Origin: Acidiferrobacter thiooxydans
GTDB taxonomy: Bacteria; Pseudomonadota; Gammaproteobacteria; Acidiferrobacterales; Acidiferrobacteraceae
NCBI RefSeq assembly: GCF_003333315.1
Contig: NZ_PSYR01000001.1
Span: 708,501-772,500, forward strand
DNA: 64,000 nt
Reading direction: 5' to 3'
Shown here piece after piece: positions 17,543-38,342 of the stretch. Each line of letters opens with the position of its first letter. Position 1 is the first letter of the stretch. Position numbers and translations under genes: made by a program. Under the pieces are notes generated by a model that did no database searches, was not told the origin of the DNA, and saw only the letters and a list, made by a program, of their open reading frames with translations.

Positions 17543-17602
17543 GTAGTCGGACTTCGCGTCGGTCCAGAATGTGACGTTTGTAGAGCCGTGAGGAGACATC
17601 TT

Positions 17603-19015: not shown

Positions 19016-19018
19016 GTG

Positions 19019-20906: not shown

Positions 20907-20930
20907 GCGCAACGAGGAGAGAAGGCTGAC

Positions 20931-21680: not shown

Positions 21681-22584
21681 AGTTGCCTATTATCCCGGCT
21701 GCGCGCTCGAGGGTTCGGGTGGTCCCTACGACAAGTCGACGCGCGTGCTGGTCGACAAGCTCGGCCTCAAGATGGAAAACCTCGAGGATTACAGCTGCTG
21801 CGGCGCGATGGAGGTGAAGAACATTCATCCGATGCTGCAGACCTATATGTCGGCGCGTAATCTCGCCATCGCCAGCGAGCAGATGGGGTACGATACCGTC
21901 ATGGCGCCGTGCAACGGCTGCTACCACAACCTGAAGAAGACCGAGTATGAGCTCGCCACCTCGGAAGAGCACCTAAAGACCGTTCAAGATCTCGCCAAGA
22001 AGGCCGATGATCCGGTGTACAAGGGCGATGTGCGCACTGTCCATCTGCTCGAGTGGCTGATGGAGGAGTTGGGGCCGGAGGGCATCAAGGCCAAGATGTC
22101 GAAGAGCCTGAAGGGGCTCAAGATCGCCAACTACTACGGCTGCATGTATACCCGCCCGCGCCAGATCTTCCCCGAGAAGGATCAGGGGCCGGGCTCGGAG
22201 TCGAGTTACAAGCCCCATTTCATGGACGACCTGCTGGCGGCGGCGGGCGCCGAGAACGTCGACTTTCCCTTGAAGACCGCGTGCTGCGGGGGAGCCCATA
22301 CTCTTTCGGATTCCGACACCTCGACGCAGCTCGTACTGAACATTCTGCAGGCTGCCGAGGAGGCGGGCGCCGAGGTTATCGCTACGGAATGTCCGACCTG
22401 CCACTCGGGGCTCGAGATGCATCAGGTGCGTGCCGAAAAGGAGTTTGGGATCACGACCAACGTGAAGATCGTCTACTTTACGCAGCTCCTGGGGCTTGCC
22501 ATGGGGATGTCGCCGCGTAAGATGGGGATTCACGAGAACATCAGTGACTCTATGGGGTTCTTGAAGGAGAAGGGCGTAGCCTGA
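21673..22584 (+). CDS. shdrB2: sHdrB2, subunit with two CCG domains
   Basis: 303 residues with two intact CCG motifs: Cys10, Cys42-Cys43, Cys80xxCys83 and Cys157, Cys204-Cys205, Cys240xxCys243. These coordinate noncubane [4Fe-4S] clusters in HdrB proteins, the site of disulfide chemistry. ATG 21673 has AGGAGG 6 bases upstream and overlaps the shdrC2 stop by 8 bases. Unlike sHdrB1, both domains look complete. Confidence 0.95.
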   Translation: MSKVAYYPGCALEGSGGPYDKSTRVLVDKLGLKMENLEDYSCCGAMEVKNIHPMLQTYMSARNLAIASEQMGYDTVMAPCNGCYHNLKKTEYELATSEEHLKTVQDLAKKADDPVYKGDVRTVHLLEWLMEELGPEGIKAKMSKSLKGLKIANYYGCMYTRPRQIFPEKDQGPGSESSYKPHFMDDLLAAAGAENVDFPLKTACCGGAHTLSDSDTSTQLVLNILQAAEEAGAEVIATECPTCHSGLEMHQVRAEKEFGITTNVKIVYFTQLLGLAMGMSPRKMGIHENISDSMGFLKEKGVA

Positions 22585-22645
22585 GGTCGCAGGAAGGCTC
22601 GGCTTTCACGTCACTGGCATAGAGCATTCACGGACCGGGGGTCTG

Positions 22646-23092
22646 GTGGAGTATAACGGCTGCGAGTTTCGTCCTGAGCTGTACTACGACCGTGAATTCC
22701 AGATCTGGCTCAGGCGCGAGGAGAACGGCGCGATCACGATCGGCATGACCGATATCTCGCAGACGATCGCCGGCAAGATTCTGCACGCGCGGGTGCGCAG
22801 GCCGGGGACCATGCGGCCGGCCGGCAAGCCGGTGGCGACGATCGAGAGCGGCAAGTGGGCGGGTCCTATTCCCAATGTCTTCGATTGCGTGATCGAAGAG
22901 GGGAACCGCGAGGTGCTCGATGACCCGAACCTTTTGAACGTCGAGCCCTACGAGGCGTGGGTCGCGCGCGTACGGCCGGTGGCGCCCGTGGATGAGGTCT
23001 TGACGGCGCTCGTCACCGGCGAGGAGGCGGCGCGCGGTTACGGCGAGCGCTGCGTTCGCGAGGACATCAAATGCACCCGGGGTGTACGGTAA
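22646..23092 (+). CDS. lbpA1: LbpA1, divergent lipoate-binding GcvH-like protein
   Basis: Lipoyl-carrier protein of 148 residues. The lipoylation site is Lys70 in ESGKWAGP. Compared with the second copy downstream it is divergent: the GP-x-x-TPVTG segment after the Lys is GPIPNVFDC here, and the last 35 residues carry two extra Cys (residues about 137 and 143). The GTG start 22646 has only a GGGG-type ribosome site. It ends TAATG with the DsrE-like gene, so those two products are made together. In the sHdr pathway LbpA carries the sulfur substrate on its lipoate arm. Confidence 0.88.
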   Translation: MEYNGCEFRPELYYDREFQIWLRREENGAITIGMTDISQTIAGKILHARVRRPGTMRPAGKPVATIESGKWAGPIPNVFDCVIEEGNREVLDDPNLLNVEPYEAWVARVRPVAPVDEVLTALVTGEEAARGYGERCVREDIKCTRGVR

Positions 23093-23490
23093 TGGCTGAC
23101 GACCATTTTCTCGACAACGACGAAAAGTCCGTGCTTATCGTCATGACGAGCGGTCCGTCGACACCACACCGCTGCGCCACGCCGTTTTACTTGGGCGCGA
23201 TCCTGGCGTCGATGGACGCTGATGTACGGATATTCTTTACCATGGAGGGTGTAAACCTCCTAAAGAAGGGCGTGGCCGAGAATTTGACGGCCATGGAAGG
23301 CGGTAAGCGCGTCATCGATTTCATACGTGACGCCAAGGCGGCAGGTGTGAAGCTGCATCTGTGTCTGCCGGCCCTGCCGGGCTATAAAATCGACGAGAAA
23401 GCGGATATTATCGCTGAGGTCGACGAGTGTTCCGGCGGCGGAACGCTGGCTGACTTGATATTGTCCTGCGACAAGGTCCTGTTTTTTTAG
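23092..23490 (+). CDS. DsrE3-like sulfur-transfer protein
   Basis: 132-residue DsrE-family protein. Landmarks are VLIVMTSGPSTPHRCATPF, DVRIFFTMEGVNLLKKG and LHLCLPALPGY. Four Cys are present (about residues 28, 97, 119 and 128); Cys97 in the KLHLC strand is at the place of the persulfide Cys in DsrE3 proteins. The start is ATG 23092, overlapping the lbpA1 stop (TAATG). Its place between two lbpA genes argues for direct sulfur transfer to lipoylated LbpA or to sHdr; that step is inference. Confidence 0.82.
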   Translation: MADDHFLDNDEKSVLIVMTSGPSTPHRCATPFYLGAILASMDADVRIFFTMEGVNLLKKGVAENLTAMEGGKRVIDFIRDAKAAGVKLHLCLPALPGYKIDEKADIIAEVDECSGGGTLADLILSCDKVLFF

Positions 23491-23518
23491 CGTTTTCCGG
23501 GATCGGACATACTAGGGA

Positions 23519-23547
23519 TTGAAACCTGCTCCGCATCGGCATTATGT
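23519..23547 (+). promoter_or_regulatory. Candidate sigma70 promoter of lbpA2
   Basis: TTGAAA (23519-23524) and TTATGT (23542-23547) are 17 bases apart, 41 bases before the lbpA2 start. With 97 bases between the DsrE-like gene and lbpA2, an independent promoter for lbpA2 and the lipoate-assembly genes is plausible. Confidence 0.45.
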
Positions 23548-23587
23548 ATGGCGGGGTTATTTCTGACGAAACGGGAGGTTTTTCTGA

Positions 23588-24025
23588 ATGGCTTCAGTGC
23601 GCGGCTGTAATATTCCGGAAGACTTGAGCTACAACGTCGATAACAACGTATGGGCCCGACGCGAAGCCGATGGCACCGTGACCGTTGGCTTGACGGCATA
23701 TGCATGCTCGCTTGCAGGCGAGATCGTGGCCTACACGCCGAAGAAGGCCGGCAAGGACATCGCCAAGGATAAGTCTTGCGCGACCGTCGAGTCGGGCAAG
23801 TGGGTGGGGCCGGTGAAGACCCCGGTCACGGGATCGGTGATAGCGGTCAATGATGCGGTCGCGAGCAAGCCGGGCCTGATCAACAAGGACCCCTACGGCG
23901 AGGGCTGGGTGGTGAAGATGAAACCCAGCGATTGGGACGGAGAGTCGAAGTCGCTGAAGACCGGCGGTGATGCGGTGTCGGCGTTCGAAGCAAAGATGGA
24001 CAGCGAAGGCTTCAAGGGCTGTTAA
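23588..24025 (+). CDS. lbpA2: LbpA2, lipoate-binding GcvH-like protein
   Basis: 145-residue lipoyl carrier with the canonical features: VWARREADGTVTVGLT, Lys71 in VESGKWVGPV, the TPVTGSV turn and DPYGEGWVVKM. This is the form expected to serve the sHdr complex; glycine-cleavage genes are absent around it. A GGGAGG lies upstream. It is followed directly by the dedicated lipoate-assembly genes, which is the usual neighbourhood of LbpA. Confidence 0.94.
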   Translation: MASVRGCNIPEDLSYNVDNNVWARREADGTVTVGLTAYACSLAGEIVAYTPKKAGKDIAKDKSCATVESGKWVGPVKTPVTGSVIAVNDAVASKPGLINKDPYGEGWVVKMKPSDWDGESKSLKTGGDAVSAFEAKMDSEGFKGC

Positions 24026-24074
24026 GGCCGAAGGCGCGAGATGATCGCGCCTTTCGCGTTTTCAAAGGGGCCTT

Positions 24075-25232
24075 ATGAGCGCTTGGTCGGAAATCCTCGA
24101 GGCAGTCGAACCGCTGGAAGATCTGGCGTTCGATGTCGGCCTCGTCGAACGCTTGGCGGCGTCCGAGGGGGCGCTTCCGGGGATCCATTTCTACACGCCG
24201 ACATTCAAGAGCTACGCGAGTAGCGAGATCCGGGACTGCGGGCGTAGTGCCTGGCCTGCGATCTCGATCACGGGCGGCGACTGCAAGCTGAACTGCGACC
24301 ACTGCAAGGCCAAGATCCTGGAGCCCATGATCCCGGCGCGTAGTCCCGAGGAGTTGTGGCGCGCGGTCAACGGGGTCGTCGAGCAGGGCGCAGGGGGCAT
24401 GCTGTTGACGGGCGGCTCGAACCACCGCAACGAGGTCGAATACGACCGCTACTATCCCACCATCCGGCGCATCAAAGACGAGTTCCCGCAGTTTCGCATC
24501 GCCATGCACACCGCGCTCGTGGATGACGCCATCGCCGGGCGCATGGCCGATGCCGGCATCGATGCCGCCATGATGGATGTCATCGGTGCGCAGGATACGA
24601 TTACCCAAGTCTATCATTTGCGGCGCGCGGTCGACGATTTCGAGCGAGCCCTGGAGGCGCTCACGAAGACCTCCATGAAGGTTGTGCCGCACATCGTAGT
24701 CGGGCTGCATTATGGCCAGCTGCTTGGGGAATGGAACGCGCTGGAGATCGTGGCGCGGCACAAGCCCTCGGCGTTGGTATTGGTGGTGGTCATGCCGACT
24801 TACGCCGGCGAACTGCGGCCGTTCGCGACACCCGATCCCCATGAGGTGGGGCAGTTTTTTGGGGATGCGCGCACGGTCTTGCCGGACGTGCCGTTGCTGC
24901 TGGGGTGCGCACGGCCGGCGGGATCCGTAAAAAGCCTAATCGACGCCTACGCCGTCATGGCCGGAGTGGATGGCATGGCGCACCCGAGCGACGGCATGGT
25001 GGAACTCGCCGCGCGTCTCGAGCGGCCGGTGCGTGTCACGCCGGCATGTTGCTCGATCGCGGTAGGCGACGAGGTCATGGCGATGAGTGGATCGGATTCG
25101 GGGCTCGAGATCGATCTTGACGAGATCGTCCGGCATGAGCGTGAACGGCGCGCGGCCCGCAAACGCCAGTCGGTGTTCGGCGAGATCAAGGTGATGGGCG
25201 GCGAAGAACGGTCGGGTTGCTGCGGGACATGA
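24075..25232 (+). CDS. lipS1: LipS1-type radical SAM lipoate synthase subunit
   Basis: 385-residue radical SAM protein with C70xxxC74xxC77 (GGDCKLNCDHCKAK), preceded by an N-terminal helical segment, and ending in a Cys pair (SGCCGT). LipS1 and LipS2 together insert the two sulfurs into octanoyl-LbpA, replacing LipA, in archaea and sHdr organisms. The 1/2 labels here follow gene order and were not checked by alignment. The stop overlaps the next start (ATGA), coupling it to the ligase gene. Confidence 0.85.
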   Translation: MSAWSEILEAVEPLEDLAFDVGLVERLAASEGALPGIHFYTPTFKSYASSEIRDCGRSAWPAISITGGDCKLNCDHCKAKILEPMIPARSPEELWRAVNGVVEQGAGGMLLTGGSNHRNEVEYDRYYPTIRRIKDEFPQFRIAMHTALVDDAIAGRMADAGIDAAMMDVIGAQDTITQVYHLRRAVDDFERALEALTKTSMKVVPHIVVGLHYGQLLGEWNALEIVARHKPSALVLVVVMPTYAGELRPFATPDPHEVGQFFGDARTVLPDVPLLLGCARPAGSVKSLIDAYAVMAGVDGMAHPSDGMVELAARLERPVRVTPACCSIAVGDEVMAMSGSDSGLEIDLDEIVRHERERRAARKRQSVFGEIKVMGGEERSGCCGT

Positions 25233-26317
25233 GCCGCGCCTGGCGCCTCATCGATACCGGCGTGAGGCCGGCGGCCGAGAACATGGCGCTGGATCGCGCA
25301 CTGCTGGAGTCCTGTCAGGCGGGCGCCCCCAACACTTTGCGTTTTTTGCGCTTCGAGCCGTCGGCGCTCATCGGCTTCCATCAGAGCGTCTCCCAGGAAC
25401 TGGATATCGACTACTGTCGGCGGGAAGGTATTGGGATCTCGCGACGCATAACCGGTGGTGGGGCGCTTTACTGCGACCAGGGGCAGATCGGCTGGGAGCT
25501 TTTCGTGGACCGCCGCACATTCGCCACCGGCGATATGCTCGCGATTGCGCGCACGGTGTGCGGTATCGCCGTGGAAGGATTGCGGTCCCTGGGCGTGGAT
25601 GCCGCGTTTCGCCCACGCAATGACATCGAGGTGGCGGGCCGCAAGATCGGCGGGACCGGCGGGGCCTTCGACGGCAATGCCTTGCTCTACCAGGGGACGG
25701 TGCTGATCGATTTTGACGTCGAGCGCATGCTACGGGTGTTGCGCATACCCCAGGAAAAGCTTTCCGACAAGGCCATTGCCTCGGCGCGCGAGCGGATAAC
25801 GACCTTGCGGGCGTGGCTTTCGGATGATACGCCATCGGCAGCAACGGTGCAGGCGGCATTCGCGCGGGCGTTCGCGCAAGGCTTGGGTGTGACCTTCGAG
25901 GCCGGGGACCTGAGCGCTGTCGAGCGCGACCTGTATGGGCGCTACCGGATCGAGATGGCCGGCGACGACTGGATCTTCGAGACCGACAGGCCCAGGATCG
26001 AGGTGGCAACCGCAAGCGCCATGCGCAAGACCGCAGGCGGACTCGTGCGCGTGATGGTAACGGTGGATACGGCGCGCGAGCGCCTAAAGCAGGCCTTCAT
26101 CACGGGGGACTTCTTTATCAACCCGCGGCGCGCGATCGTCGATCTCGAGGCCGCTCTGCGCGACCTGGCGCTGGAGAGGGTCGATGAGACGGTGGACGCA
26201 TTCTTTAAAAACCGCACGGTCGAGATGTTGTTGCTGACGCCTGAGGACCTCAAGGCGGTGTTGCGCGAGGCCTTGAGATCGCTCGAGCCCCAAGGTCATG
26301 AACGCATCGGCGTTTGA
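25229..26317 (+). CDS. sLpl(AB)-type lipoate/octanoate-protein ligase
   Basis: 362-residue ligase that attaches octanoate or lipoate to LbpA. The family motifs are RRITGGGALYCDQG (residues about 71-84), RKIGGTGGAFDGNALLYQGT with the catalytic Lys, and a C-terminal accessory region in the same chain, hence the AB form of 362 rather than about 250 residues. ATG 25229 overlaps lipS1 by 4 bases. Such sLpl proteins occur only with sHdr-LbpA genes. Confidence 0.9.
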   Translation: MSRAWRLIDTGVRPAAENMALDRALLESCQAGAPNTLRFLRFEPSALIGFHQSVSQELDIDYCRREGIGISRRITGGGALYCDQGQIGWELFVDRRTFATGDMLAIARTVCGIAVEGLRSLGVDAAFRPRNDIEVAGRKIGGTGGAFDGNALLYQGTVLIDFDVERMLRVLRIPQEKLSDKAIASARERITTLRAWLSDDTPSAATVQAAFARAFAQGLGVTFEAGDLSAVERDLYGRYRIEMAGDDWIFETDRPRIEVATASAMRKTAGGLVRVMVTVDTARERLKQAFITGDFFINPRRAIVDLEAALRDLALERVDETVDAFFKNRTVEMLLLTPEDLKAVLREALRSLEPQGHERIGV

Positions 26318-27359
26318 TGTTCTGGTCGTAGGACTCGGGCCTGGCGGGGCGTCGGCGGCGGCGGTCGCGGCGCGCGCCGGTCTCTCGGTGTTGGCCATCG
26401 ACAAGCGTCGCACGATCGGCGAGCCCGTGCAGTGCGCGGAGTTTGTGCCGCTCACCATGGGGCGCTACGCCAAGCCGGCGCTCGTGCAAAGGATCGCGGG
26501 CATGCGCAGTGTGCTGCCCTCCGGGGCCTGCGAGCATTCGGATTTTCCGGGGCTCATGGTCGACCGGGCGATGTTCGATCAGGCGCTCGCGACCGAGGCC
26601 TCGAGGGCCGGGGCGATGTTGCGTATCCAGACGGCCCTAAAGGGGCTCGAGCACGGGCAGCGCGCCGCCATCCTGCGGGGTCCCGAGGGCCATGTCGAGC
26701 GCGCCCACTACAAGGTGCTGATCGCAGCCGACGGCCCGCATTCGACGGTGGCGCGCTGCGTGGGGCTCGCGCCATTGAAGACCGTGGAGACGCGCCAATA
26801 CCAGGTGCCGCTGCAGCGTCCTTACGACGACACGGATATCTGGCTTTCCGATGAATTTCCCGGCGGTTATGGCTGGCTGTTTCCGCGGGGTCCGGTGGCC
26901 AATGTCGGGCTCGGGGCGGATCGACGCCTGGCGGGGGACCTGAAGGCGCCGCTCGAGCGGTTGCATGCGACGCTCATGCGCGATGAGGTCGTGGGCGCGG
27001 AGGTCTTGGGGCGTACCGGCGGCAGCATCCCGGTCGGCGGGATACGTGTCCCTTTGGTGCATGACAGTATCCTGTTCGTAGGCGATGCTGCGGGCCTCAC
27101 CCACCCCATTACCGGGGCCGGCATTGCCAGTGCGGTGGTGTCGGGCGAGCGCGCGGGGTTGGCCGCCGCCGAGTTTCTGGCACGCGGTGCGGCATTGGAC
27201 GAATATGCGGCGGACATGCAAGACGAGTTCGCCGAGAGCTTGGCGCGTGCCGTGGCGCGCCGGGAGTGGTTGATGGAGCGCTGGCATACGCCGGCGGCCC
27301 ATTTGGATGAGACCCACAAGCGCGGCTGGATTGCGTTTCGTGAATACTTCGTACGTTAA
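26298..27359 (+). CDS. lipT: LipT, FAD-dependent geranylgeranyl-reductase-like protein
   Basis: 353-residue flavoprotein of the geranylgeranyl reductase group: FAD motif VVGLGPGGASAAAVAARAGL at the N-terminus, second motif LFVGDAAGLTHPITGAGI near residue 258. In sHdr lipoate-assembly loci the protein is called LipT and is thought to supply electrons to the LipS radical SAM pair. It overlaps the ligase gene by 20 bases and is followed 21 bases later by lipS2, so the module is one operon. Confidence 0.88.
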   Translation: MNASAFDVLVVGLGPGGASAAAVAARAGLSVLAIDKRRTIGEPVQCAEFVPLTMGRYAKPALVQRIAGMRSVLPSGACEHSDFPGLMVDRAMFDQALATEASRAGAMLRIQTALKGLEHGQRAAILRGPEGHVERAHYKVLIAADGPHSTVARCVGLAPLKTVETRQYQVPLQRPYDDTDIWLSDEFPGGYGWLFPRGPVANVGLGADRRLAGDLKAPLERLHATLMRDEVVGAEVLGRTGGSIPVGGIRVPLVHDSILFVGDAAGLTHPITGAGIASAVVSGERAGLAAAEFLARGAALDEYAADMQDEFAESLARAVARREWLMERWHTPAAHLDETHKRGWIAFREYFVR

Positions 27360-27380
27360 GTTCTGCTGAGGAGACCCATT

Positions 27381-28511
27381 ATGAGCGCTACCGCCGACTC
27401 CGTGACGCCGATCACCTTTTACCGCCCGAACTATCACATGAAGACCCCGGCCATGCGATCGCCGGAGTATGTCCAGATGTCGACGGCCGCCGCCATTACC
27501 CTCGGTCTCGTTCCTGGCCAGATGCATAGAACCGGTTGCACGCATTGCCTGAATCTCCTCGTGACCTATTCGGAAGGTTGCCGGGCGAATTGCGCCTACT
27601 GTGGGCTTGCGCGTCATCGCGAGGAGGCCCGCGACTATGCCGATCGGAATTTCATCCGCGTGGACTGGCCGGCGGTACGCTATGACGAGGTCATAGAGCG
27701 TATGCGGGCGGGCAGTGATAAGGGGCAATTCCAGCGCATGTGCATCTCCATGATCACGCACCCCGAATCCGATCGTGACACCATGACCTTGCTGAAGCGC
27801 TGGACCGCGGCTGTGCCCCATGTCCCGGTGTCGATCTTGTCCAACCCCACGACCATGGAAAAGGCCGACCTCGTGGCGCTACGCGATGCCGGTGCCGACA
27901 TCTTTACCATCGCCCTCGATGCCGTGACTCCCGAGATTTTTGATCGGACGCGCGGCAAGGCGGTGGACAGCCCGCACAAGTGGGCCAAGTACTGGCAGGC
28001 CCTGGAGTGGGCGGCGGAGGTCTTTGGGCCCGAGAAGTTCGGCGCGCATCTCATCTGCGGCATGGGCGAGACCGAGCAGGAGATACTGGAGGTGGCCCAG
28101 AAGATCACCGACATGGGCGGCCACAATCACATGTTCGCATTTTTCCCAGAGCGCGGTTCGCTCATGGAGGACTGGGCGCCGGTACCCAAGGATCAGTGGC
28201 GGCGCGTGCAGTTGGCGCGTTTCATCATCGATTATGCCGGCGGCCATATCCGCGACATGCGTTTCGATGCCGAAGGCCGGGTGGTGGATTTCGGGATGAC
28301 CGAGGCGGATCTGGCCGACCTCATTGCCTCGGGCAAGCCCTTTCAGACCTCGGGATGTCCTGGTAAGGATGACGAGGAGATATCGGCCTGCAACCGCCCC
28401 TACGGCGACTCCAGTCCGTCCGACATTCGCTCCTTCCCCTTTGCCTTGAATCGTCGCGACGTCGAGATCGTCAAGCGTCAGATGGCGGGCGAGGATATCG
28501 GGACCTTGTAA
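27381..28511 (+). CDS. lipS2: LipS2-type radical SAM lipoate synthase subunit
   Basis: 376-residue radical SAM protein. The SAM-cluster motif is C67xxxC71xxC74 (SEGCRANCAYCGLAR). Further Cys sets that could bind an auxiliary cluster are C53xxC56 (TGCTHC) and a C-terminal pair in SGCPGKDDEE and SACNRPYGDS. A sulfur-donating auxiliary cluster is expected for lipoate synthesis. It has a GAGGAG ribosome site and closes the lipS1-sLpl-lipT-lipS2 operon; a long hairpin follows. Confidence 0.87.
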   Translation: MSATADSVTPITFYRPNYHMKTPAMRSPEYVQMSTAAAITLGLVPGQMHRTGCTHCLNLLVTYSEGCRANCAYCGLARHREEARDYADRNFIRVDWPAVRYDEVIERMRAGSDKGQFQRMCISMITHPESDRDTMTLLKRWTAAVPHVPVSILSNPTTMEKADLVALRDAGADIFTIALDAVTPEIFDRTRGKAVDSPHKWAKYWQALEWAAEVFGPEKFGAHLICGMGETEQEILEVAQKITDMGGHNHMFAFFPERGSLMEDWAPVPKDQWRRVQLARFIIDYAGGHIRDMRFDAEGRVVDFGMTEADLADLIASGKPFQTSGCPGKDDEEISACNRPYGDSSPSDIRSFPFALNRRDVEIVKRQMAGEDIGTL

Positions 28512-28516
28512 GGTGT

Positions 28517-28545
28517 GGGGCCGAAGCGGTAACCGCTTCGGCCCC
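28517..28545. terminator. 14-bp stem hairpin between convergent lipS2 and an outer-membrane gene
   Basis: GGGGCCGAAGCGGT and its reverse complement ACCGCTTCGGCCCC are separated by one base, giving a very stable stem. It starts 6 bases after lipS2 and ends 15 bases from the end of the opposing gene, a typical place for a bidirectional terminator. No T-run is present on either side. Confidence 0.65.
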
Positions 28546-28559
28546 GATAACCCAGCCCC

Positions 28560-29786
28560 TTAAGAGAACCGGCGGCTGATGCTGACGCCAAAGAGCTGGG
28601 CGCGGGTCTTGTAGGTCCCGTTATAGGCGCTGGTGCCGTTGGGATCCGCACCCGTAAGCGGTGTGGTCGAGGCGTAGGTGCGGGTATTGAAGAGCACGTA
28701 CATGTAGCCCGCGCTCAGACTCCAGGCCCCCAGCCTCTGGCTCGCCCCGAAACTGAACTCCTGGCGGTTGGCATCCGGTATGCGCGCCGAGAAGTCGCTA
28801 TTCGTGGCGCCCGTCACGTCATAGGCGTAGCCGGCGCGCAGGCGCACATGACGACTCAAGGCGTAGTGCAGGCCTATGCGGTAGGCATTCGAGGACTGCC
28901 AGTCGTAGGTGCTGGTGAGTAGCGCCGGGCCACCTCCCGCCGCTGGGGCCGGTGTGACGACCATGTTGCTGAAGCGGCTCCAGCCGGTGCGATCGAAATC
29001 CAGCTCGACCCCGAGCTTGGTGTTCAGCGCCTCACTCACGCCGACCGCCAACTGCCAGGGTAGATGCAGGGTGGTGTTGACGGGGATCGAGCGCCCGGGT
29101 CCGTTGAATGTCCCGTCGAGCGGTACATTGACCGCTGACCGGTAATTAATGCCCACGCCCAGTGTGCCCCAGTGGCCCAAGGCCCCCACATGCGCGCCGA
29201 CCTGGTCTCCGGAGCCGCTCACGGTGGCGAGCGGCGTCCCCAGCACCGTGCGATGCGCGTCGTAGTAATCGGCCCCGGCGTCCACGGCGACCGGACCGAA
29301 GCGATACGAGAAGCTCGGCGCGACGTCGAAGAGGCGCAGTTGTGTGTAGGTTGGCGCGAGCGCCGCCGCCGATCCGTGGGCGAGCGTCGGAAAAGTTTGC
29401 GCGGGCCATGCGATCTGTAGCCCATAAGGTTCATTTATACCAAACCCGAAACGTGTGTGTGGCGCGATCTTGTCCGACCAGAACAGGTTGGGCATCGTTT
29501 GCCAGTGCGGGGTGGTCGCGACCACAGTCCCCGTACCGCCTGCGGGCGTCACCTGCGTGTGATCGTAGATCCCCTGAAGACCGAGGTCGTACCCGCCTTT
29601 GTGAAAGGCCATGGCCGCGGGATTATAGGCCAGCGCACCGAGGCTGTTGGTGTTCGCCACCAGGGCATCGGCCTCGCTTAGTCCGGTGATTGAGAGCTCC
29701 GCAATCGCAAAGCCTGATGCGTGGGCGACCCCAAGGCCGGCCGCTGCCATGAGTAGCGCCGTTACCAGGGTTGATCGAGGACGCAT
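28560..29786 (-). CDS. FadL/OmpP1-family outer-membrane transporter (copy 1)
   Basis: 408-residue beta-barrel with a signal peptide (STLVTALLMAAAGLGVAHA) and the FadL-type start SGFAIAELSITGLSEADAL followed by NSLGALAYNPAAMAF. It ends with SISRRFS. FadL-type channels pass hydrophobic molecules through the outer membrane. Being next to the sHdr/lipoate island and divergent from a second FadL-type gene, it may handle hydrophobic sulfur forms; hydrocarbons or fatty acids are the alternative, and no degradation genes for those are nearby. Confidence 0.85.
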   Translation of the reverse strand: MRPRSTLVTALLMAAAGLGVAHASGFAIAELSITGLSEADALVANTNSLGALAYNPAAMAFHKGGYDLGLQGIYDHTQVTPAGGTGTVVATTPHWQTMPNLFWSDKIAPHTRFGFGINEPYGLQIAWPAQTFPTLAHGSAAALAPTYTQLRLFDVAPSFSYRFGPVAVDAGADYYDAHRTVLGTPLATVSGSGDQVGAHVGALGHWGTLGVGINYRSAVNVPLDGTFNGPGRSIPVNTTLHLPWQLAVGVSEALNTKLGVELDFDRTGWSRFSNMVVTPAPAAGGGPALLTSTYDWQSSNAYRIGLHYALSRHVRLRAGYAYDVTGATNSDFSARIPDANRQEFSFGASQRLGAWSLSAGYMYVLFNTRTYASTTPLTGADPNGTSAYNGTYKTRAQLFGVSISRRFS

Positions 29787-30040
29787 ATAAGTGTCTCCTA
29801 ATGTTGTATGGAGTCTTCCAGAAAGTTTGGCTTATGACGACCCCGTTGGCGAGGTCGTGCGAGCCGCTTGACGTTTCCTTCTTGCATATTGACAGGAAGG
29901 TGACGCTTAGGGAATATTGCCCCGTCCGTTTGCGTCCGGAGCTTCACACACAACAATACCTAACGAGAAAAAATACCAGAAGACGCGAACGACGCGGCAC
30001 CCTTGCCGCCCTTCGTGATTCATGTCCATAGGAGGACATC

Positions 30041-31357
30041 ATGGTGAGCACTAAGAAGTGGGCGCTGGCCTCGGCCGTTGCCGCCGCCATAGCCCTACCC
30101 GCTACCGCCCTGGCGACCACCGCCGGCTATTTCCAACTCGGATACAGCACCATTAGTGACGGCATGGCCGGTGCCAGCGCCGCCCTTCCCCAAGACAGCA
30201 TGATCCAGGCCACCAACCCCGCGGGCATCGCTTTTGTGGGTAGCCGCTTGGATCTGGGTGTAGCCGGGTTCTGGCCTTATCGAGGTTACTCAAGCGGCAC
30301 AGCCGGTACTGCGGGTTGCAGTGCGCAGGGTTGCAGTCCAATGCCAAATCCTGGTAGTTACGGGAGTAATGGGGATTTCTTCCTCATCCCGCACATCGGT
30401 TACACCCAGCGCCTGAGCCACGATAACTATGTCGGCCTCGCCATTTATGGCAACGGTGGCATGAGTACGAATTATCATTACCCGGCGGCGACTACCGGGG
30501 CGAATGGCGGCCCGGTGCCCGGCGGCCCGTTTTATGACGGCCAGACGGGTGTCAATCTCCAGCAACTCTTCATCCAGGCAACCTATGCGCGCAAATTTAT
30601 GCGCCACGACTCTCTGGGCCTTAGTCTGATTGTGGCGCGCCAAACATTCAGCGCTGATGGGCTCAGCGGTTTTTCGCGTTACTCGGCTAATCCTGGTTCG
30701 CTGAGTGGTCGGGGTTCTGCTACGTCAGATGGTGTGGGTTTCAAGGTTGGTGGCCAGTTTCGGATCCTGCCAGGCATCGATCTAGGTATCGCCTACTCGC
30801 CGCGCATGACGATGTCCAAGTTTAATGCTTACTCAGGACTATTCGCCGGCGGGGGCCGCTTCGATATCCCAGCGAACGGCGTCGTTGGACTTGCGTTCAA
30901 GCCTACTGCCCATCAGGTACTCGCGTTCGATTTCCAGAGGATCTACTACAATGATGTGCCGGCGATTGCCGATCCGATCAACGGTCTCCTTACCGGTGCC
31001 AAGTTAGGCTCCGCCGGGGGGCCGGGTTTTGGATGGCAAAATATATCGGTTTATAAGCTCGGTTATCAGATCGCCTTGAATCACGCCGTCACCGGGCGCG
31101 TCGGCTTTGCTTACAATACCCAGCCAATCCCGGCCTCGCAGGTGTTATTCAATATACTTGCACCCGGCGTTATCCAGCGCCATGTTACAGCCGGCGTGAC
31201 GGTCCGCACGGCGCGCCATCAGGACGTCTCGGTGGCAGCCATGTATGGTCTCCCACAGTCGGTCTACGGCAATGCGCCCGCAGGCTTCGGTGGGGCGCCG
31301 ATCAAGATCAGCCTGCACGAATACCAGCTCGAGGCAAACTGGGGATGGAAGTTCTAA
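30041..31357 (+). CDS. FadL/OmpP1-family outer-membrane transporter (copy 2)
   Basis: 438-residue outer-membrane protein with a signal peptide (KKWALASAVAAAIALPATALA) and FadL-like start (YFQLGYSTISDGMAGASAAL, then ATNPAGIAFVG); it ends LEANWGWKF with terminal Phe. The loops are Gly/Ser/Pro-rich and contain a Cys pair (GCSAQGC, about residue 95) that could form a disulfide. It is only distantly like copy 1, so this is not a recent duplication. The 254-base divergent spacer is A/T-richer than its surroundings and should hold both promoters. AGGAGG precedes ATG 30041. Confidence 0.85.
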   Translation: MVSTKKWALASAVAAAIALPATALATTAGYFQLGYSTISDGMAGASAALPQDSMIQATNPAGIAFVGSRLDLGVAGFWPYRGYSSGTAGTAGCSAQGCSPMPNPGSYGSNGDFFLIPHIGYTQRLSHDNYVGLAIYGNGGMSTNYHYPAATTGANGGPVPGGPFYDGQTGVNLQQLFIQATYARKFMRHDSLGLSLIVARQTFSADGLSGFSRYSANPGSLSGRGSATSDGVGFKVGGQFRILPGIDLGIAYSPRMTMSKFNAYSGLFAGGGRFDIPANGVVGLAFKPTAHQVLAFDFQRIYYNDVPAIADPINGLLTGAKLGSAGGPGFGWQNISVYKLGYQIALNHAVTGRVGFAYNTQPIPASQVLFNILAPGVIQRHVTAGVTVRTARHQDVSVAAMYGLPQSVYGNAPAGFGGAPIKISLHEYQLEANWGWKF

Positions 31358-31393
31358 CACCAAGAGCGCTTGTCATTCACATCATGTGAATAT

Positions 31394-31417
31394 GGGGGGG
31401 CCTTGCGCCCCCTTTTT
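31394..31417 (+). terminator. Intrinsic terminator after the second FadL-type gene
   Basis: A run of seven G, a short loop and five C are followed by five T (31413-31417). A second inverted repeat (ATTCACAT-C-ATGTGAAT, 31375-31391) lies just before it. Together they should end the transcript 40-60 bases after the outer-membrane gene. Confidence 0.7.
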
Positions 31418-31448
31418 CTCTTAAGAGCTCGGAGAACAGGGGTGATTC

Positions 31449-32360
31449 ATGGAGAAAAGACAGTGGCTGGGATGTTGCTTGGCGGCGGGGCTTGCGGTCA
31501 GTACCGCGGCGGTCGCGCATAATATACGCTATAAACCTTTCATTCTCGGCCATCAGGCCGCGGGCTCGGAGACCATGACGCAGGTCGTGGCGGCCACGCG
31601 TAAGGCCCTGACGACGAATGGCTTTCATATCGTCGGCCAGTATGTGCCGTTTCGGCGCACGACGATCATGTGCGCCACCTACCCGGAGATGTTGAAGGCT
31701 GCGGCGCATGCCAAGAACGGCGGCTTTGGCGCCGTCGAACGGATATCGATCACGAAGGTGCATGGCAAGTGGCAGGTGTCGTATGTGAATCCGGATTATC
31801 TGGCGGTCGCCTACGGCCTGCGTCCCTTGCCCAAGACCGATATGGCGTTAAAGACAGCGCTTGGGGCCAAGACCCCATTCGGGTCGCGGCGTGGGCTCAC
31901 GCGCGATGAGTTGAAGCCCGGCAATTATCATTACGCGCTTTTCATGCCGTATTTCAACAACGTCGACCATGTGCGCCGGTTTCCGAACCACGCGGCAGCG
32001 GTGAACACGATCCGCGCGAACCTCATGAAACATGTGGCGACGTCGTCGTTCGTTTACGAAGTGAATGTCCCGGGGACGCCTAAGCCGACCACGGTCTTTG
32101 GTTTTGGTATCAAGAGTGGCAAGGGTGGCGATCACCATATCCTGCATATCATCGATGTCCATCGCTACCGCGGCTATGCCTATCTCCCTTATGAGATGAT
32201 GGTCGTTGGGCGGCGGGTCATCGCCCTGCGTCCCCGCTACCGTATTGCCGTCAATTTCCCCGATACGTCCATGATGGGCTCGCACGGCTTCATGAATATC
32301 ATGAGTGCCCCGGGTGCGATCCGCAAGGTGATGAAAGAGGTCGCGGGCCGCAAAGGCTGA
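31449..32360 (+). CDS. Secreted protein, weakly DUF302-like, function unknown
   Basis: 303 residues with a signal peptide (LGCCLAAGLAVSTAAVAH). The next 110 residues (VVAATRKALTTNGFHIVGQY, then RTTIMCATYPEMLKAA and KWQVSYVNPDYLAVAYGL) resemble the layout of DUF302-type domains; the second half (HVATSSFVYEVNVPGTP, GGDHHILHIIDVHRYRGYA) is a second alpha/beta unit. One Cys remains in the mature part. It lies downstream of the FadL-type gene in the same direction, past a terminator, and is flanked by its own terminator. Periplasmic location is inferred from the signal. Confidence 0.6.
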   Translation: MEKRQWLGCCLAAGLAVSTAAVAHNIRYKPFILGHQAAGSETMTQVVAATRKALTTNGFHIVGQYVPFRRTTIMCATYPEMLKAAAHAKNGGFGAVERISITKVHGKWQVSYVNPDYLAVAYGLRPLPKTDMALKTALGAKTPFGSRRGLTRDELKPGNYHYALFMPYFNNVDHVRRFPNHAAAVNTIRANLMKHVATSSFVYEVNVPGTPKPTTVFGFGIKSGKGGDHHILHIIDVHRYRGYAYLPYEMMVVGRRVIALRPRYRIAVNFPDTSMMGSHGFMNIMSAPGAIRKVMKEVAGRKG

Positions 32361-32381
32361 GGCCTTCCCGCGATGCATGAG

Positions 32382-32412
32382 GGCGGCAGGTGGTGTGCCT
32401 GCCGCCTTTCTT
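32382..32412 (+). terminator. Intrinsic terminator
   Basis: GGCGGCAGG, a 7-base loop and CCTGCCGCC form a perfect 9-bp stem followed by TTTCTT. It lies 21 bases after the secreted-protein gene and separates it from the next small genes. Confidence 0.8.
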
Positions 32413-32457
32413 GTGTTGGCGCCCCGACATACAATAAGGGCTTTGGCGGGGGTGCGC

Positions 32458-32859
32458 ATGAAGTCGATCAAGGTTACCGACGTAGGCCAGATCAAAAACG
32501 AGCTCAACAAGTACCGCCAGGGCAAGAAGCTCGAAATCCGCCAGTTCAATCAGGCCGCGCGTCTTGCGTGGCTTGGCAAGGTCACCCTGATGCCCCTCGA
32601 TCCCGAGGACCCGGAGACCCGGTCGTACCTTCTCTATATCGATTACCCGGATGGCTTGAGCGCGCGTATCGTCAATGTCGACGAGGATCTGGTCGGCCGT
32701 ATCTTCATCCTTGATGGCGAGCAGGCGATGTTCATAGCCGAGATCGTCGAGCAGGGGGTGCGCGAGCGTGCCGCACTCTATGAGGATCTGAACCGCCGCG
32801 ATTTCTATTTCGGGAAGTTCTATACGCCCGGGACGGACGAGGACGAGGCGGGCGGCTAG
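32458..32859 (+). CDS. Small cytoplasmic protein, function unknown
   Basis: 133 residues, acidic, no signal or membrane segment. It begins MKSIKVTDVGQIKNELNKYR, a helical segment, followed by a beta-rich part (RSYLLYIDYPDGLSARIVNV, RIFILDGEQAMFIAEI). ATG 32458 is chosen because the upstream extension overlaps the terminator region. It is followed after 3 bases by another small gene, so the two are probably co-translated. I do not recognise the family. Confidence 0.6.
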   Translation: MKSIKVTDVGQIKNELNKYRQGKKLEIRQFNQAARLAWLGKVTLMPLDPEDPETRSYLLYIDYPDGLSARIVNVDEDLVGRIFILDGEQAMFIAEIVEQGVRERAALYEDLNRRDFYFGKFYTPGTDEDEAGG

Positions 32860-32862
32860 CCG

Positions 32863-33246
32863 ATGGCGACCCCCACGATCGCCGCGCGCCTCAGGCGCCG
32901 GTTCCTGCTCATGACCACCGATGTCGCCGTGCGTGAGCGGCTGCAGGCCCAGGTCCCCACCGACTGGGAGATGGTGGCGATCACCTCGCTGGATGAGGCC
33001 GGCGATTGGAATGAGATCCTGCTCTACCGCTTCCTGCTGCTCGATCTCGACGAGGTCGAGGCCTTTGATCCGATCGACGTGATCCGGACCTTGCGGATGG
33101 AATATCTCTTGCAGATCGCCGTATTGTGCTTCGGCGGGGACACCGACATCCAAGACGAGATGCGGATGTCACGAGCCGATCGCTTTTACGCGCGCGAGGA
33201 GATCGTGACCGTTTTACCGCAATTCCTCGCCCAGTACGCCTGGTAG
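32863..33246 (+). CDS. Degenerate receiver-like protein, function unknown
   Basis: 127 residues with an alternating alpha/beta pattern resembling a response-regulator receiver: RRRFLLMTTDVAVRERLQ as strand/helix 1, FLLLDLDEVEAFDPIDVIRTLR in the phospho-acceptor area and LLQIAVLCFGGD after it. The Asp in LLLDLDE could stand for the acceptor, but the conserved Lys near the end is not evident. Resemblance is by eye only. It forms a pair with the preceding gene. Confidence 0.5.
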   Translation: MATPTIAARLRRRFLLMTTDVAVRERLQAQVPTDWEMVAITSLDEAGDWNEILLYRFLLLDLDEVEAFDPIDVIRTLRMEYLLQIAVLCFGGDTDIQDEMRMSRADRFYAREEIVTVLPQFLAQYAW

Positions 33247-33247
33247 C

Positions 33248-33574
33248 TCAGCCGATCCAGGCGTGTTCTATGACGTCGAGGCGCAGGTCTTGCCGGAAGG
33301 ACTCGCCGCCCTTTTCGACGATCAGCGTGGCCACCCGGCTACCGGCGGTGTCGAAGGCGACCTCGCAGGTAAAGGTGTTGGGTAGCGTGATTTGCTGATC
33401 GCAGCGTGCCTGGCTCTCCCCGTCGACTATGACCTGCGCGTGGGCGCGCCCCTCGCCTTCGAGCAGCGCCTGAATGCGGAACGGCTTTTTGGGAACGCGA
33501 CGATAGACCTGGGGGTCGCGATTGGCGTTGTAGATGAGGTTGTTTAGACGCACGAGCTTCACGAGCTGTTTCAT
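33248..33574 (-). CDS. Small protein, function unknown
   Basis: 108 residues, no signal peptide or membrane segment. The basic N-terminus (KQLVKLVRLNNLIYNANRD) is followed by a beta-rich domain with two Cys (QARCDQQITLPNTFTCEVAF). It is convergent with the preceding gene with one base between stops, and divergent from the next. I do not recognise it. Confidence 0.5.
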   Translation of the reverse strand: MKQLVKLVRLNNLIYNANRDPQVYRRVPKKPFRIQALLEGEGRAHAQVIVDGESQARCDQQITLPNTFTCEVAFDTAGSRVATLIVEKGGESFRQDLRLDVIEHAWIG

Positions 33575-33660
33575 GGGCCTCCCGGACGCCGCCCGTCATG
33601 GGGGCGGTGTGATAAGATGGGCGGATTCTACGGAATGTGCGACGGGAGGTCTAGCGCGGC

Positions 33661-34074
33661 ATGACAGTCTCGGGACTTGAGGCCACGATGCGCGAGGTGG
33701 ATGGTGAGATCGGCGTCCTGGAGGGGGCCCTGCGCGAGGGGCGCCTGGAGCTTGCGCCGGCCGTGGAGCGTGCGCTCTGTCTCGTCAATCGCTTGATGCT
33801 GGTGTTTGCGCAGACCGCCGATCACCCGGTGTCGGGTCTGGATGAGCAGGCCGATCCCCTCGAGGTCTTCAAGGCCTTCGTCAAGGGTGACCCCTCGCTC
33901 AATGCGGTGCGCGACAACCTGCGCGAGCTCGTGTATTACCGCAACTGCCTGGCCGGCGGGCGCGAGGATGCGCTGCCGCCCCGCCCGCTGGCGATGACCG
34001 TGCGAACCCTTCGGCACATTTATCTCTATATGCGCACACGCGCCATCAAGGAATACGGGCTCAAAGAGGCATGA
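33661..34074 (+). CDS. Small helical protein, function unknown
   Basis: 137 residues, predicted all-helical (EVDGEIGVLEGALREGRLEL, LAPAVERALCLVNRLMLVFA, LREVYY-type segment LRELVYYRNCLAGG). No cofactor motif. Its stop overlaps the start of the HDAC-family gene (ATGA), so the two are translationally coupled and may work together. I do not recognise the family. Confidence 0.6.
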   Translation: MTVSGLEATMREVDGEIGVLEGALREGRLELAPAVERALCLVNRLMLVFAQTADHPVSGLDEQADPLEVFKAFVKGDPSLNAVRDNLRELVYYRNCLAGGREDALPPRPLAMTVRTLRHIYLYMRTRAIKEYGLKEA

Positions 34075-35246
34075 TCGGGACGGAGACGGGGACCAGGCGC
34101 CGCGCGGTATTTGTGGGTGGCTCCCATTACCGTCGCCCGAGTTACGGTCATAACCATCCACTCGCCATCCCGCGCGTATCCCTGACCTACGATGTGATCA
34201 CGGCCTATGGGGCGCTTACGCCCTCCGAGTTCGTGCGTTCACGCCCGGCGAGCGCGGGCGAGTTGACCCGCTTTCATACCCGCGATTATGTGAATGCCTT
34301 GAAGCGCGCCGAGGCCTTTGGACGGGTGCGCCCCGAGGATCGCGCCCGCCACGAATTGGGGACCATCGAAAACCCTTACTTTCCAGGCATGTTTTACACC
34401 CCGGCCCTTGCCACCGGTGGCAGCCTGCAGGCCGCCGAGGCGGTGCTTGCGGGATGCCACGCCTTCAGCCCGGCCGGGGGCATGCATCACGCGGTTCCGG
34501 ACGCGGCGCGCGGCTTTTGTTATTTCAATGATGTCGTGCTTGCGATCTTAAGGCTGCGCGCCGAGGGCCTGCGGGTCTTGTATCTGGATATCGACGCCCA
34601 TCACGGCGACGGGGTCGAGCAGGCCTTCTGGGATGACGCCTCGGTCATGACGGTCTCGCTGCACATGGATACCGCCTACGCCTATCCCTTCAAGGGCGGG
34701 AATCTCCAGGACCAGGGAGGACCCAAGGCCTTGGGTCTCACCCTCAATATCCCGCTGCCCCGCGAGACCCATGACCGGGAATACCGCAAGGTCTTCGCCG
34801 GCATATGGCAGCCGGTCGTGGAGCGCTTCCGGCCGGACGCCATCGTCTTGCAGACCGGAACCGATGCGCTGTTCGGGGATCCCTTGGGCCGGTTCCAGCT
34901 ATCGACCGCCGGTTTTCTGGACATCGTCGCGCAGGTCGTGGCCGCCGGATTGCCGGTACTCGCCACGGGGGGCGGGGGTTATCACCCCTTGCTGCTGGCG
35001 CGGGCCTGGACCGGGGTGTGGGGGCTGCTGTCGGGGCGTGCGCTCCCGGAGGCGCTCCCGGAGGCGGCCCGTCACGCGCTGCGCGCCGTGGGCTGGGATG
35101 AGGACGAAGACGAGCCGTATTACGAGGATCTGTTTCGCAACCGCCTGGAATACGGCGAGGAGCGGCCGGTACGCCCGGTGATTCACGAACTCATCGCCGC
35201 GCTTTCCGTTCACCCGGCCCTGAAGAGGCGTCTATGGGCCTCCTAG
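34071..35246 (+). CDS. Histone deacetylase-family (AcuC/APAH-like) hydrolase
   Basis: 391-residue metal-dependent deacetylase-fold enzyme. Typical features are the HH pair in GGMHHAVPDAARGFCYFND, zinc ligands Asp and His in YLDIDAHHGDGVEQAF and the third Asp in TGTDALFGDPLGRF, and the late GGGGY turn. Bacterial members remove acetyl groups from small amines, polyamines or acetyl-lysine; the substrate here cannot be told. It overlaps the aldo/keto reductase gene by 13 bases, forming a three-gene operon with the small helical protein. Confidence 0.9.
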   Translation: MIGTETGTRRRAVFVGGSHYRRPSYGHNHPLAIPRVSLTYDVITAYGALTPSEFVRSRPASAGELTRFHTRDYVNALKRAEAFGRVRPEDRARHELGTIENPYFPGMFYTPALATGGSLQAAEAVLAGCHAFSPAGGMHHAVPDAARGFCYFNDVVLAILRLRAEGLRVLYLDIDAHHGDGVEQAFWDDASVMTVSLHMDTAYAYPFKGGNLQDQGGPKALGLTLNIPLPRETHDREYRKVFAGIWQPVVERFRPDAIVLQTGTDALFGDPLGRFQLSTAGFLDIVAQVVAAGLPVLATGGGGYHPLLLARAWTGVWGLLSGRALPEALPEAARHALRAVGWDEDEDEPYYEDLFRNRLEYGEERPVRPVIHELIAALSVHPALKRRLWAS

Positions 35247-36391
35247 ATCGGCGCGCGGCGCGCCTCATTCCCGGGATCGCAACCGCCGAGGCGACGCGCG
35301 CCTATAGCCTTGCCCATGATCTCGATCCTGGGCACTACAGCGATTTTCAGGGGCGCGTGAAGCTGAGCGCCATTGGTCTCGGGACCTTTCCGGGGGTCGC
35401 CGACGATGTCACTGATCAGGCGATCGCCGATATCGTTCACAAGGGGCTCGTGAGCGGCCTGAATGTCATCGATACCGCCGCCCATTATCGTTACGGTCGG
35501 TCGCTCGCGGCCATCGCCGCCGGTCTGCGCCGGGCCTGGGACGATGGCGTGAAGCGCGAGGCCTTGTGGCTTATGTCCAAGGGGGGGTTCGTGACCTTTC
35601 CCGGAGAAACACCGGCCGATCCCAAGGCCTATATAGAGGCTGAGATCATCGCCAAGGGGCTTGGTCGGCGCGAGGACTGCGCCGGGGCGCACGTCTTGAG
35701 TCCCGATCATATCCGTGCCCAGATCGAACAAAGTCGCGTGGCCCTGGGGGTCGAGACCCTGGATGCGTTTCTCGTGGATCAGCCGGAGGTACATATCCCG
35801 GTATCGGGCAAGGCGGCCTTGATCGATAAGCTCGCCATGGTGTTTGTGGCGCTTGAGGAGGCGGTGCGTGACGGTGCCATCGCCCATTACGGGGTGTCGA
35901 GCTTTCAGGCCTTTCGCGTGGCCACCGATGATACCTTGTTCCTGTCGCTGGCCTCGCTCATGGCGCTCGCCGGGAAGGCGGCAAAGACCGTGACGGGGTC
36001 GGAGCGCGACCATCACTTCGCGGTGATCGAATTGCCATTCAACGCCGTCATGCTGGAGGGTTTCTCGCGCTTCAACCAGATCACCGGCGAGGGGGGTGAG
36101 GCCTCGACCCTGCAAGCGGCCTTGGCGCTCAATCTCTATACCGTGGCAAGCCATGGGTTATTGAAAGGGCATCTCGCCCGGCAATCGGTCGACATCCTCG
36201 TACAGGCCATGCCCGGTCTCGCCAATGACGCCCGGCGCGCCCTGCAATTCAATCGCTCGACGCCGGGGCTGGGCACGACCCTCGTAGGCCTTAGCACCCC
36301 GGCCCACCTCGAGGATGTGTTGGCAGTCGCGCGTACGCCGCTCTTGAGCCATGCCGCCTATATGGCGCTCTACCATCGCGCCGAGAATTGA
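35234..36391 (+). CDS. Aldo/keto reductase-like protein
   Basis: 385 residues with a TIM-barrel aldo/keto reductase layout: GLGTFPGVADDVTD, then NVIDTAAHYRYGRSL carrying the catalytic Asp and Tyr (D-x4-Y spacing), and VETLDAFLVDQPEVHIPV and AIAHYGVSSFQAFRV later. The family's third catalytic element appears as LMSKGGF. It is longer than average owing to an N-terminal 40-residue extension and an insertion around residue 250. The gene overlaps the HDAC-family gene. The substrate is unknown. Confidence 0.8.
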   Translation: MGLLDRRAARLIPGIATAEATRAYSLAHDLDPGHYSDFQGRVKLSAIGLGTFPGVADDVTDQAIADIVHKGLVSGLNVIDTAAHYRYGRSLAAIAAGLRRAWDDGVKREALWLMSKGGFVTFPGETPADPKAYIEAEIIAKGLGRREDCAGAHVLSPDHIRAQIEQSRVALGVETLDAFLVDQPEVHIPVSGKAALIDKLAMVFVALEEAVRDGAIAHYGVSSFQAFRVATDDTLFLSLASLMALAGKAAKTVTGSERDHHFAVIELPFNAVMLEGFSRFNQITGEGGEASTLQAALALNLYTVASHGLLKGHLARQSVDILVQAMPGLANDARRALQFNRSTPGLGTTLVGLSTPAHLEDVLAVARTPLLSHAAYMALYHRAEN

Positions 36392-38285: not shown

Positions 38286-38342
38286 TAAATCATTGTATAC
38301 TACAAAGCCCGATGGGCGCGCGATCGAGGGGTGAAAAGAGAC

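Follow-up and report, generated by a model that had tools for sequence, protein, structure and literature searches.

A FadL-type channel and its secreted-protein partner near the sHdr genes of Acidiferrobacter thiooxydans: candidates for an envelope unit handling zero-valent sulfur

Introduction

S8 is hydrophobic and nearly insoluble, and channels of the TodX type pass small uncharged hydrophobes. The step by which sulfur enters through the outer membrane is called unknown (PMC10045233; PMC11267869). Outer-membrane passage of zero-valent sulfur has been proposed for OprD-type porins of Sulfurovum and Sulfurimonas from their expression on S0 (PMC10045233), and Omp40 of Acidithiobacillus ferrooxidans, a 40-kDa protein of a 120-kDa oligomer, has likewise been proposed as an outer-membrane sulfur transporter (PMC10531304). 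Here we describe a locus with candidates from a porin family other than OprD. It lies in a stretch of 64,000 nucleotides (the window; all positions refer to it) of the 3.25-Mb genome of Acidiferrobacter thiooxydans, and it comprises porA (28560 to 29786, minus strand), encoding a FadL/Toluene_X-type outer-membrane channel of 408 amino acids, porB (30041 to 31357, plus strand), encoding a FadL-type channel of 438 amino acids, and sec (31449 to 32360, plus strand), encoding a protein of 303 amino acids with a signal-peptide-like start.

Our searches of a library of open-licence papers found no proposal of FadL for sulfur entry, which does not establish its absence from print. The available portions of PMC10487802, PMC10092268, PMC4287430, PMC5371395 and PMC7677001 (where the match was an author name) hold no such proposal, and no mention of FadL was found in PMC10427800, PMC11582611, PMC10332631 and PMC6335251. 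We regard the porA-porB-sec locus as a real, recurrent and testable candidate module, and our preferred reading, which we consider an even call, is that porB and sec make up a unit of the cell envelope which handles zero-valent sulfur for dissimilatory sulfur oxidation.

Results

Both porins surely belong to the FadL superfamily. PorA matches the Pfam Toluene_X family (PF03349) with 131.8 bits against a cut-off of 29.7, is the sole match to this family in its own genome at E <= 0.001, carries the NPA motif as N55-P56-A57 and has no cysteine. PorB was assigned by profile comparison with solved structures, fold model and alignments: as a single sequence it reaches 24.3 bits for PF03349, under the cut-off, while a profile of 41 relatives matched TodX (E = 2.4e-32), TbuX (2.8e-32) and CymD (4e-31), the weakest match to this group lying at 1.7e-28, compared with about 1e-10 for E. 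coli FadL. The TodX match spans profile positions 33 to 424, that is, the whole barrel. In the AlphaFold model (pLDDT 87.6) PorB is predicted to form a FadL barrel with an N-terminal hatch, with 14 strands after merging two broken ones, and Foldseek matched this model to FadL-type structures at E-values of 1.2e-26 to 4.9e-20 (TodX, 1.0e-25 and 3.6e-23). The NPA motif (N59, P60, A61) is invariant in 41 of 41 aligned rows; we take this motif in the N-terminal hatch to be a FadL hallmark, and motif mutants occur among the matched structure entries.

By sequence profile, PorB is thus nearer to TodX, TbuX and CymD, the channels for small uncharged hydrophobes, than to FadL. It differs from them in an identity of only about 15 to 18% in structural alignments, in movable loop cysteine pairs and in a gene context that in many genomes consists of DsrE2, sHdr or Dsr genes and sec. 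With E. coli FadL, PorB has the predicted fold in common and PorA the Pfam family; PorA is far below the cut-off of the NCBIfam FadL equivalog model NF007988 (30.5 bits versus 585), and no fatty-acid operon was seen near its gene. The PorB of the window has no match to NF007988 at 0.01, and 17 of the 41 PorB members match it, at best with 2e-11. PorA and PorB, which each gave one match in their own genome at E <= 1e-5, are 22% identical, so that the "two unrelated FadL-type channels" of the first-pass annotation are FadL-type by Pfam, profile and fold, and very distant relatives rather than unrelated.

The superfamily assignment also feeds a rival explanation, which we consider unlikely, namely, that both porins import hydrophobic organic compounds, whether fatty acids, aromatics, terpenes or signals, and that sulfur genes lie near them by inherited order only. 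Characterised members with the FadL/TodX fold and profile take organics, a weaker relative (28%) is encoded among genes for aromatics on a plasmid of Pseudomonas putida, and 3-hydroxyacyl-CoA dehydrogenase domains, an unspecific family, are present in 141 of the 145 genomes, that of A. thiooxydans among them. The evidence that speaks against this explanation comes from the distribution, pairing and neighbours of the genes.

The distribution was compared in a class panel of 88 genomes, one per family, which is the class-level part of the 145 relatives searched. A porB carrier was defined by a best match of E <= 1e-20, with weaker matches (G082, G109, G112 and G137; G and L numbers are our labels for genomes and loci) counted as absent, as were dsrA fragments under the cut-off (G089 and G135); the Hyp gene served as the marker of sHdr. 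In this panel dsrA or Hyp occurred in 17 of 21 porB carriers compared with 13 of 67 noncarriers (p = 5e-7), and in 16 of 18 sec carriers compared with 14 of 70 others (p = 1e-7). The remaining two sec carriers, G089 and G123, both possess soxB, G089 also having a dsrA fragment, so that counting soxB too raises the figures to 18/18 versus 18/70. Generic FadL genes, that is, weak porA matches, are inversely associated with dsrA or sHdr (4/27 versus 26/61), which argues against the organic-hydrophobe explanation. As a sulfur channel on its own account, porA was rejected, since it has few strong relatives in the class panel and no link to dsrA or sHdr there.

The phylum panel comprised 299 genomes, with porB carriers being 26 other genomes at >= 149 bits (among them G400, whose porB has a stop codon) and with dsrA measured only in the 29 porB-match genomes. 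Either dsrA or Hyp was present in 19 of the 26 carriers, and porB was present in 3 of 4 Hyp carriers versus 23 of 294 others (p = 0.002). Hyp itself was detected in 25/145 relatives and 5/299 phylum genomes, the own genome included in both, and among the 21 porB carriers of the class panel, 16 possess dsrA and only 2 (G075 and G144) possess Hyp. The first-pass annotation had suggested a possible sulfur uptake module for the entry step before sHdr. Co-occurrence, a check that it had named itself, upholds the sulfur link for porB and sec and does not extend it to porA alone; the association with sHdr exists, and the Dsr route is linked just as much. A quick-search tree places the PorB of the window in a group of 30 rows, supported by an SH-aLRT value of only 81, in which all 14 members from outside the family come from genomes with dsrA over the cut-off.

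The second line of evidence is the pairing of sec with FadL-type genes. Outside the family of A. thiooxydans, sec has a FadL-type gene in the same orientation, no more than 715 bp away, in 23 of 39 judged loci, representing 14 of 21 families. Three cases stand outside the 39, i.e., L222 of G054 (where the contig ends at sec), G039 (sec beside porB by coordinates) and a second copy in G015 (own family, no FadL). In 15 loci the porB profile gives the best match to the partner, and in 8 (G104, G112, G120, G123, G050, G024, G144 and one copy in G090) another FadL profile does. Seven barrels went into this second profile, and five of them (G104, G112, G120, G123 and G144) are among the eight it labels. 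As far as they are in the tree, the barrels of this non-porB group cluster with StyE. That a single type of secreted protein is found next to barrels of two types argues for a working pair and stands against an explanation by organic substrates.

The sec protein belongs to no Pfam or NCBIfam family, a Pfam search at 0.5 being empty for the window protein. Its predicted structure (pLDDT 90.2) suggests that the N-terminal half, residues 28 to 141, has a DUF302-like fold: the DUF302 structures 1q9u (110 residues aligned) and 1j3m (108 residues) were the top rows of the VIA-align list, with a Z score of 11.2 and a root mean square deviation of 2.2 to 2.3. A kinase-associated domain was next but one in that list (Z 9.0), Foldseek matches to DUF302 were weak (E 5e-3 to 1e-2), and the DUF302 Pfam model had no match in 31 sec members at 0.1. 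The putative likeness consists of the predicted fold of this half and the setting in sulfur oxidation; DUF302 genes, taken as periplasmic, are reported to lie within sox gene clusters in sulfur lithotrophs (PMC5037610). In contrast to the DUF302 proteins, sec is longer (303 amino acids versus chains of 127 to 128 and a sox-cluster protein of 191), has no sequence match to them and carries a second half that lies outside the best matches.

The third line of evidence is gene neighbourhood, examined in 66 loci that were picked for matches to porA, porB, sec or sHdr, a choice that the neighbour counts reflect. DsrE2-like genes occur near porB or sec in 13 loci (nine over the NCBIfam cut-off where scanned), and a TusA-like frame with the CPxP motif lies near 11 of these 13. 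Another cluster of neighbours recurs beside porB or sec in 8 loci, its member in L087 being a rhodanese. In L189, L192 and L194, from genomes with dsrA and no Hyp detected, an LbpA-like gene and the order LipS1-LplA-LipT-LipS2 stand beside porB-sec, with the LbpA cluster possibly including ordinary GcvH genes; sHdr genes are near porB or sec in L088, L105, L108, L111 and L117. This recurrence of sulfur-specific neighbours across different contexts is a further point against the organic-hydrophobe explanation.

Viewed from sHdr, a FadL-type gene lies within about 12 kb in five of nine other Hyp families (G046, G075, G082, G144 and G389), with two FadL genes and sec in G075 and a FadL gene with sec in G144. 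The chance of at least 5/9 families is 1e-5 to 1e-3 for an assumed 3 to 8 FadL genes per genome, figures that are overstated because those numbers are assumed and the loci are treated as independent. By porA and porB profiles, no FadL gene was found near sHdr in the f5 genomes (G021, G026, G034 and G040), G108, G145 and G147/G199, within the fetched stretches, several of which are at contig ends.

A YeiE-like LysR gene is another recurrent neighbour; a cluster of BepA-like genes is found in 16/66 loci and one of cytochrome-c-like genes in 10. The BepA-like genes favour an explanation that we hold to be very improbable, i.e., that porB and sec serve envelope upkeep (barrel or lipid homeostasis) like PorV- or BamG-like relatives of FadL and are merely kept near envelope genes such as that of a BepA-like protease. 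At E <= 0.001 the PorV model matches 36 of 41 PorB members and the BamG model 10 of 41, and a FadL of A. thiooxidans is up under acid stress, which was read as lipid change (PMC10487802); against this, the PorB of the window has a PorV score of 22.4 bits versus a cut-off of 90, the BepA model gives 375 versus 570 in the one member scanned, and the distribution of porB and sec is tied to dsr and sHdr.

A different group of neighbours appears in genomes without dsrA and Hyp. BigR-like ArsR genes lie near porB in G285 and G400 (adjacent in both) and in the class-panel genome G081 (3.3 kb off), all within about 3.5 kb, and G285 (scanned) and G081 (assigned by cluster) also have a YeeE/YedE-type pair there. 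The Dsr genomes G100 and G243 have a BigR-like gene too, all BigR scores being under the equivalog cut-off of the model, and an SQR-type-III-like frame, also under its cut-off, lies near porB in G081 and G385. All of these neighbours count in favour of our preferred reading and against organic substrates. The BigR-like and YeeE/YedE-type genes in the three genomes without dsrA and Hyp also fit reactive-sulfur handling and, together with RND/HlyD-type genes that follow porB in L082, L087, L193 and L194, they favour the view that the unit works outward or in storage, exporting or depositing zero-valent sulfur or relieving polysulfane or sulfide stress. We judge this to be quite unlikely, since by established knowledge FadL-type channels of known substrate act in uptake. 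In A. baumannii BigR controls the yeeE-yedE-pdo2 detoxification operon (PMC7315123), which suits a role in stress, whereas YedE1E2, the kind of pair found beside porB in G285 and G081, is reported to import zero-valent sulfur across the inner membrane and to stimulate import, not export (PMC10812762).

Within the family the arrangement is well kept. Among the relatives that the porB search brought up are an Acidiferrobacter sp. and an Acidiferrobacteraceae metagenome-assembled genome, and 16 of 18 loci (L062 to L074 and L077 to L079) belong to the own family by contigs and matches. In these 16, the order lipS2-porA-porB-sec and what follows downstream are retained as far as the DNA reaches, with a 1.3-kb gap before porA in L072 and a second porB in L069; an exception is G015, from a third genus of the family, in which porA and sec are beside lipS2 and porB is elsewhere. 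The two loci from other Gammaproteobacteria, L075 and L076, hold the divergent pair without lipS2 or sec, their porA being 22 to 25% alike. This synteny is weak evidence because the surrounding genes are conserved too.

The divergent porA and porB share a spacer of 254 bp. Its alignment across 12 family genomes contains a single near-intact block of 35 bp (29885 to 29919, not assigned to a strand), with TTGACA and AATATT 18 bases apart, from which G002, G004 and G005 differ by one or two letters. The pattern of the block has one match in the window against 0 expected and occurs without mismatch in 34 of 231 loci compared; its conservation and rarity support a shared promoter or operator core for the two porins. 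Promoter-like sites as such are unremarkable in number (4 versus 1.8 expected). A regulon motif shared across the window was rejected, as no second copy of the block exists in the window at <=3 mismatches.

Upstream of the locus, on the plus strand, lie the gene for the sulfur carrier DsrE2 (16271 to 16741; NF047629, 289 bits versus a cut-off of 210) and, outside the candidate module, those for sHdr (B1, A, Hyp, C2 and B2), LbpA, DsrE, LbpA, LipS1, LplA, a LipT-type protein and LipS2 (17588 to 28511). The names of the sHdr subunits are presumed from gene order and established knowledge, and for LipS1 and LipS2 the NCBIfam models of these names score best, both under the cut-off (201.7 versus 230 and 199.9 versus 270). 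The own genome also carries dsrA (G000:C1:1221458-1222621, 557 bits) and soxB, i.e., several sulfur routes in one organism. Since lipS2 and porA are convergent, 48 bp apart, with a strong hairpin between their ends (28516 to 28546, without strand; fold z -5.3) that is a likely two-way terminator, the porins stand outside the sHdr-lip operon. A terminator-like hairpin with a T run occupies the gap between porB and sec (31394 to 31414, plus strand), and ribosome-binding sites are plausible for the porA, porB and sec open reading frames. Most of the first-pass description is borne out here: one spacer shared by the divergent porins, a secreted protein following them and no fatty-acid degradation gene in the stretch read. 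Its phrase "directly behind lipS2" is right by distance and does not amount to a common operon.

Downstream of sec, positions 32377 to 36391 hold small genes (d1 to d4), a histone-deacetylase-like gene (34071 to 35246; a predicted name, with no NCBIfam match at 1e-10) and aldo-keto-reductase-like genes. The deacetylase-like gene recurs near sHdr or LipS1 genes in other families (G046, G199, G389, G082 and G144), some members of the set come after sHdr-FadL in G082 and G144, and d1/d2-like frames were seen by eye behind sec in L218 and L220, from f5 genomes with no FadL there. A LysR regulator at 38331 to 39275 is nearest to the selenium-metabolism LysR model, with 239 bits (cut-off 250), and scores 188 bits with YeiE (cut-off 480); in nine loci from other families, relatives of it that are 64 to 79% identical lie a short way from porB or sec.

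Discussion

The predicted folds, the repeated occurrence as a pair and the link to genes of sulfur oxidation can be brought together as follows: (i) PorB would let hydrophobic sulfur, as S8 rings or polysulfanes, into its barrel from outside; (ii) the sulfur would exit PorB either laterally, into the outer membrane, or to the periplasm; (iii) the DUF302-like sec would receive, bind or open it at or under the outer membrane; and (iv) sulfane sulfur would reach the cytoplasmic relay of DsrE2, TusA and rhodanese and, from there, the sHdr or Dsr enzymes. PorA, a second FadL-type channel whose divergent gene adjoins porB in this family and in some further ones, may contribute. We infer the path from PorB through sec to DsrE2 and TusA from the substrates of TodX-type channels, the hydrophobicity of S8, the YedE1E2 kind of pair near porB and the DUF302 genes in sox clusters. 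Sulfur as the substrate is a supported guess and import of S8 is plausible, while an inward direction of transport and the part given to sec are what this context suggests.

Several observations weigh against this reading. The case named in the first-pass annotation as speaking against a sulfur role, the same type of porin in organisms that do not oxidize sulfur, is encountered in the porB family at large: neither dsrA nor Hyp is present in 7 of the 26 phylum-panel carriers (G230, G285, G400, G173, G266, G324 and G326), and in the class panel G061, G081, G092 and G122 carry porB without dsrA or sHdr. A scan of ten porB neighbours in G266, G326, G324, G092 and G122 detected no sulfur family. 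PorB relatives of about 40% identity exist without visible sulfur genes, one of 41.5% being on an Ideonella plasmid beside hydrogenase-type genes and one of 33.4% on a Paracoccus plasmid among mixed genes. In the phylum panel, soxB is not enriched in porB carriers (6/26 versus 35/272, p = 0.15), and in the class panel strong porA matches are not linked to dsrA or sHdr (3/5 versus 27/83, p = 0.33). As many as 16 of the 39 judged sec loci are without a FadL neighbour, and the fold alone ranks FadL entries as high as TodX for PorB. The loci are not independent because part of the neighbourhood (the BepA-like gene, LysR and the genes following it) looks like inherited chromosome order. An organic substrate retains some probability because a 746-amino-acid frame, FadB-sized and with a 3-hydroxyacyl-CoA dehydrogenase domain, is present elsewhere in the own genome, the family being unspecific and matched in 14 of 14 control genomes. 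Moreover, A. vinosum, a Dsr-type oxidizer, is reported to be likely unable to use S8 rings and to prefer polymeric sulfur (PMC11267869).

The loop cysteine pairs of PorB (C93/C98 in the window) were considered as thiols that open S8 and rejected in that role: they are mostly in the predicted outer loops L1, L2, L3 and L5, shift between loops, are absent in some close relatives and show no tie to sulfur context (38/70 versus 5/13 rows). They are more likely disulfide staples. Between G002 and the window, PorB is 76% identical, PorA 91% and sec 92%, so PorB diverges more than its neighbours. This divergence and the jumping cysteine pair indicate, at the level of sequence, surface loops under fast change.

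To conclude, the recurrent FadL-sec unit with its sulfur-relay neighbours offers defined genes for deletion, expression and assays, and sec represents a secreted family without a Pfam or NCBIfam model that accompanies sulfur oxidizers in the tested panel. A broader proposal, which we put forward tentatively and hold to be doubtful, is that Pseudomonadota which oxidize sulfur by the sHdr or Dsr type of pathway widely use PorB and sec to bring solid zero-valent sulfur in through the outer membrane, with sec as a new periplasmic protein handling S8 or polysulfane. If this is true, a FadL barrel would serve as a channel for inorganic sulfur. PorB and sec are testable candidates for the door by which cells take in solid sulfur.

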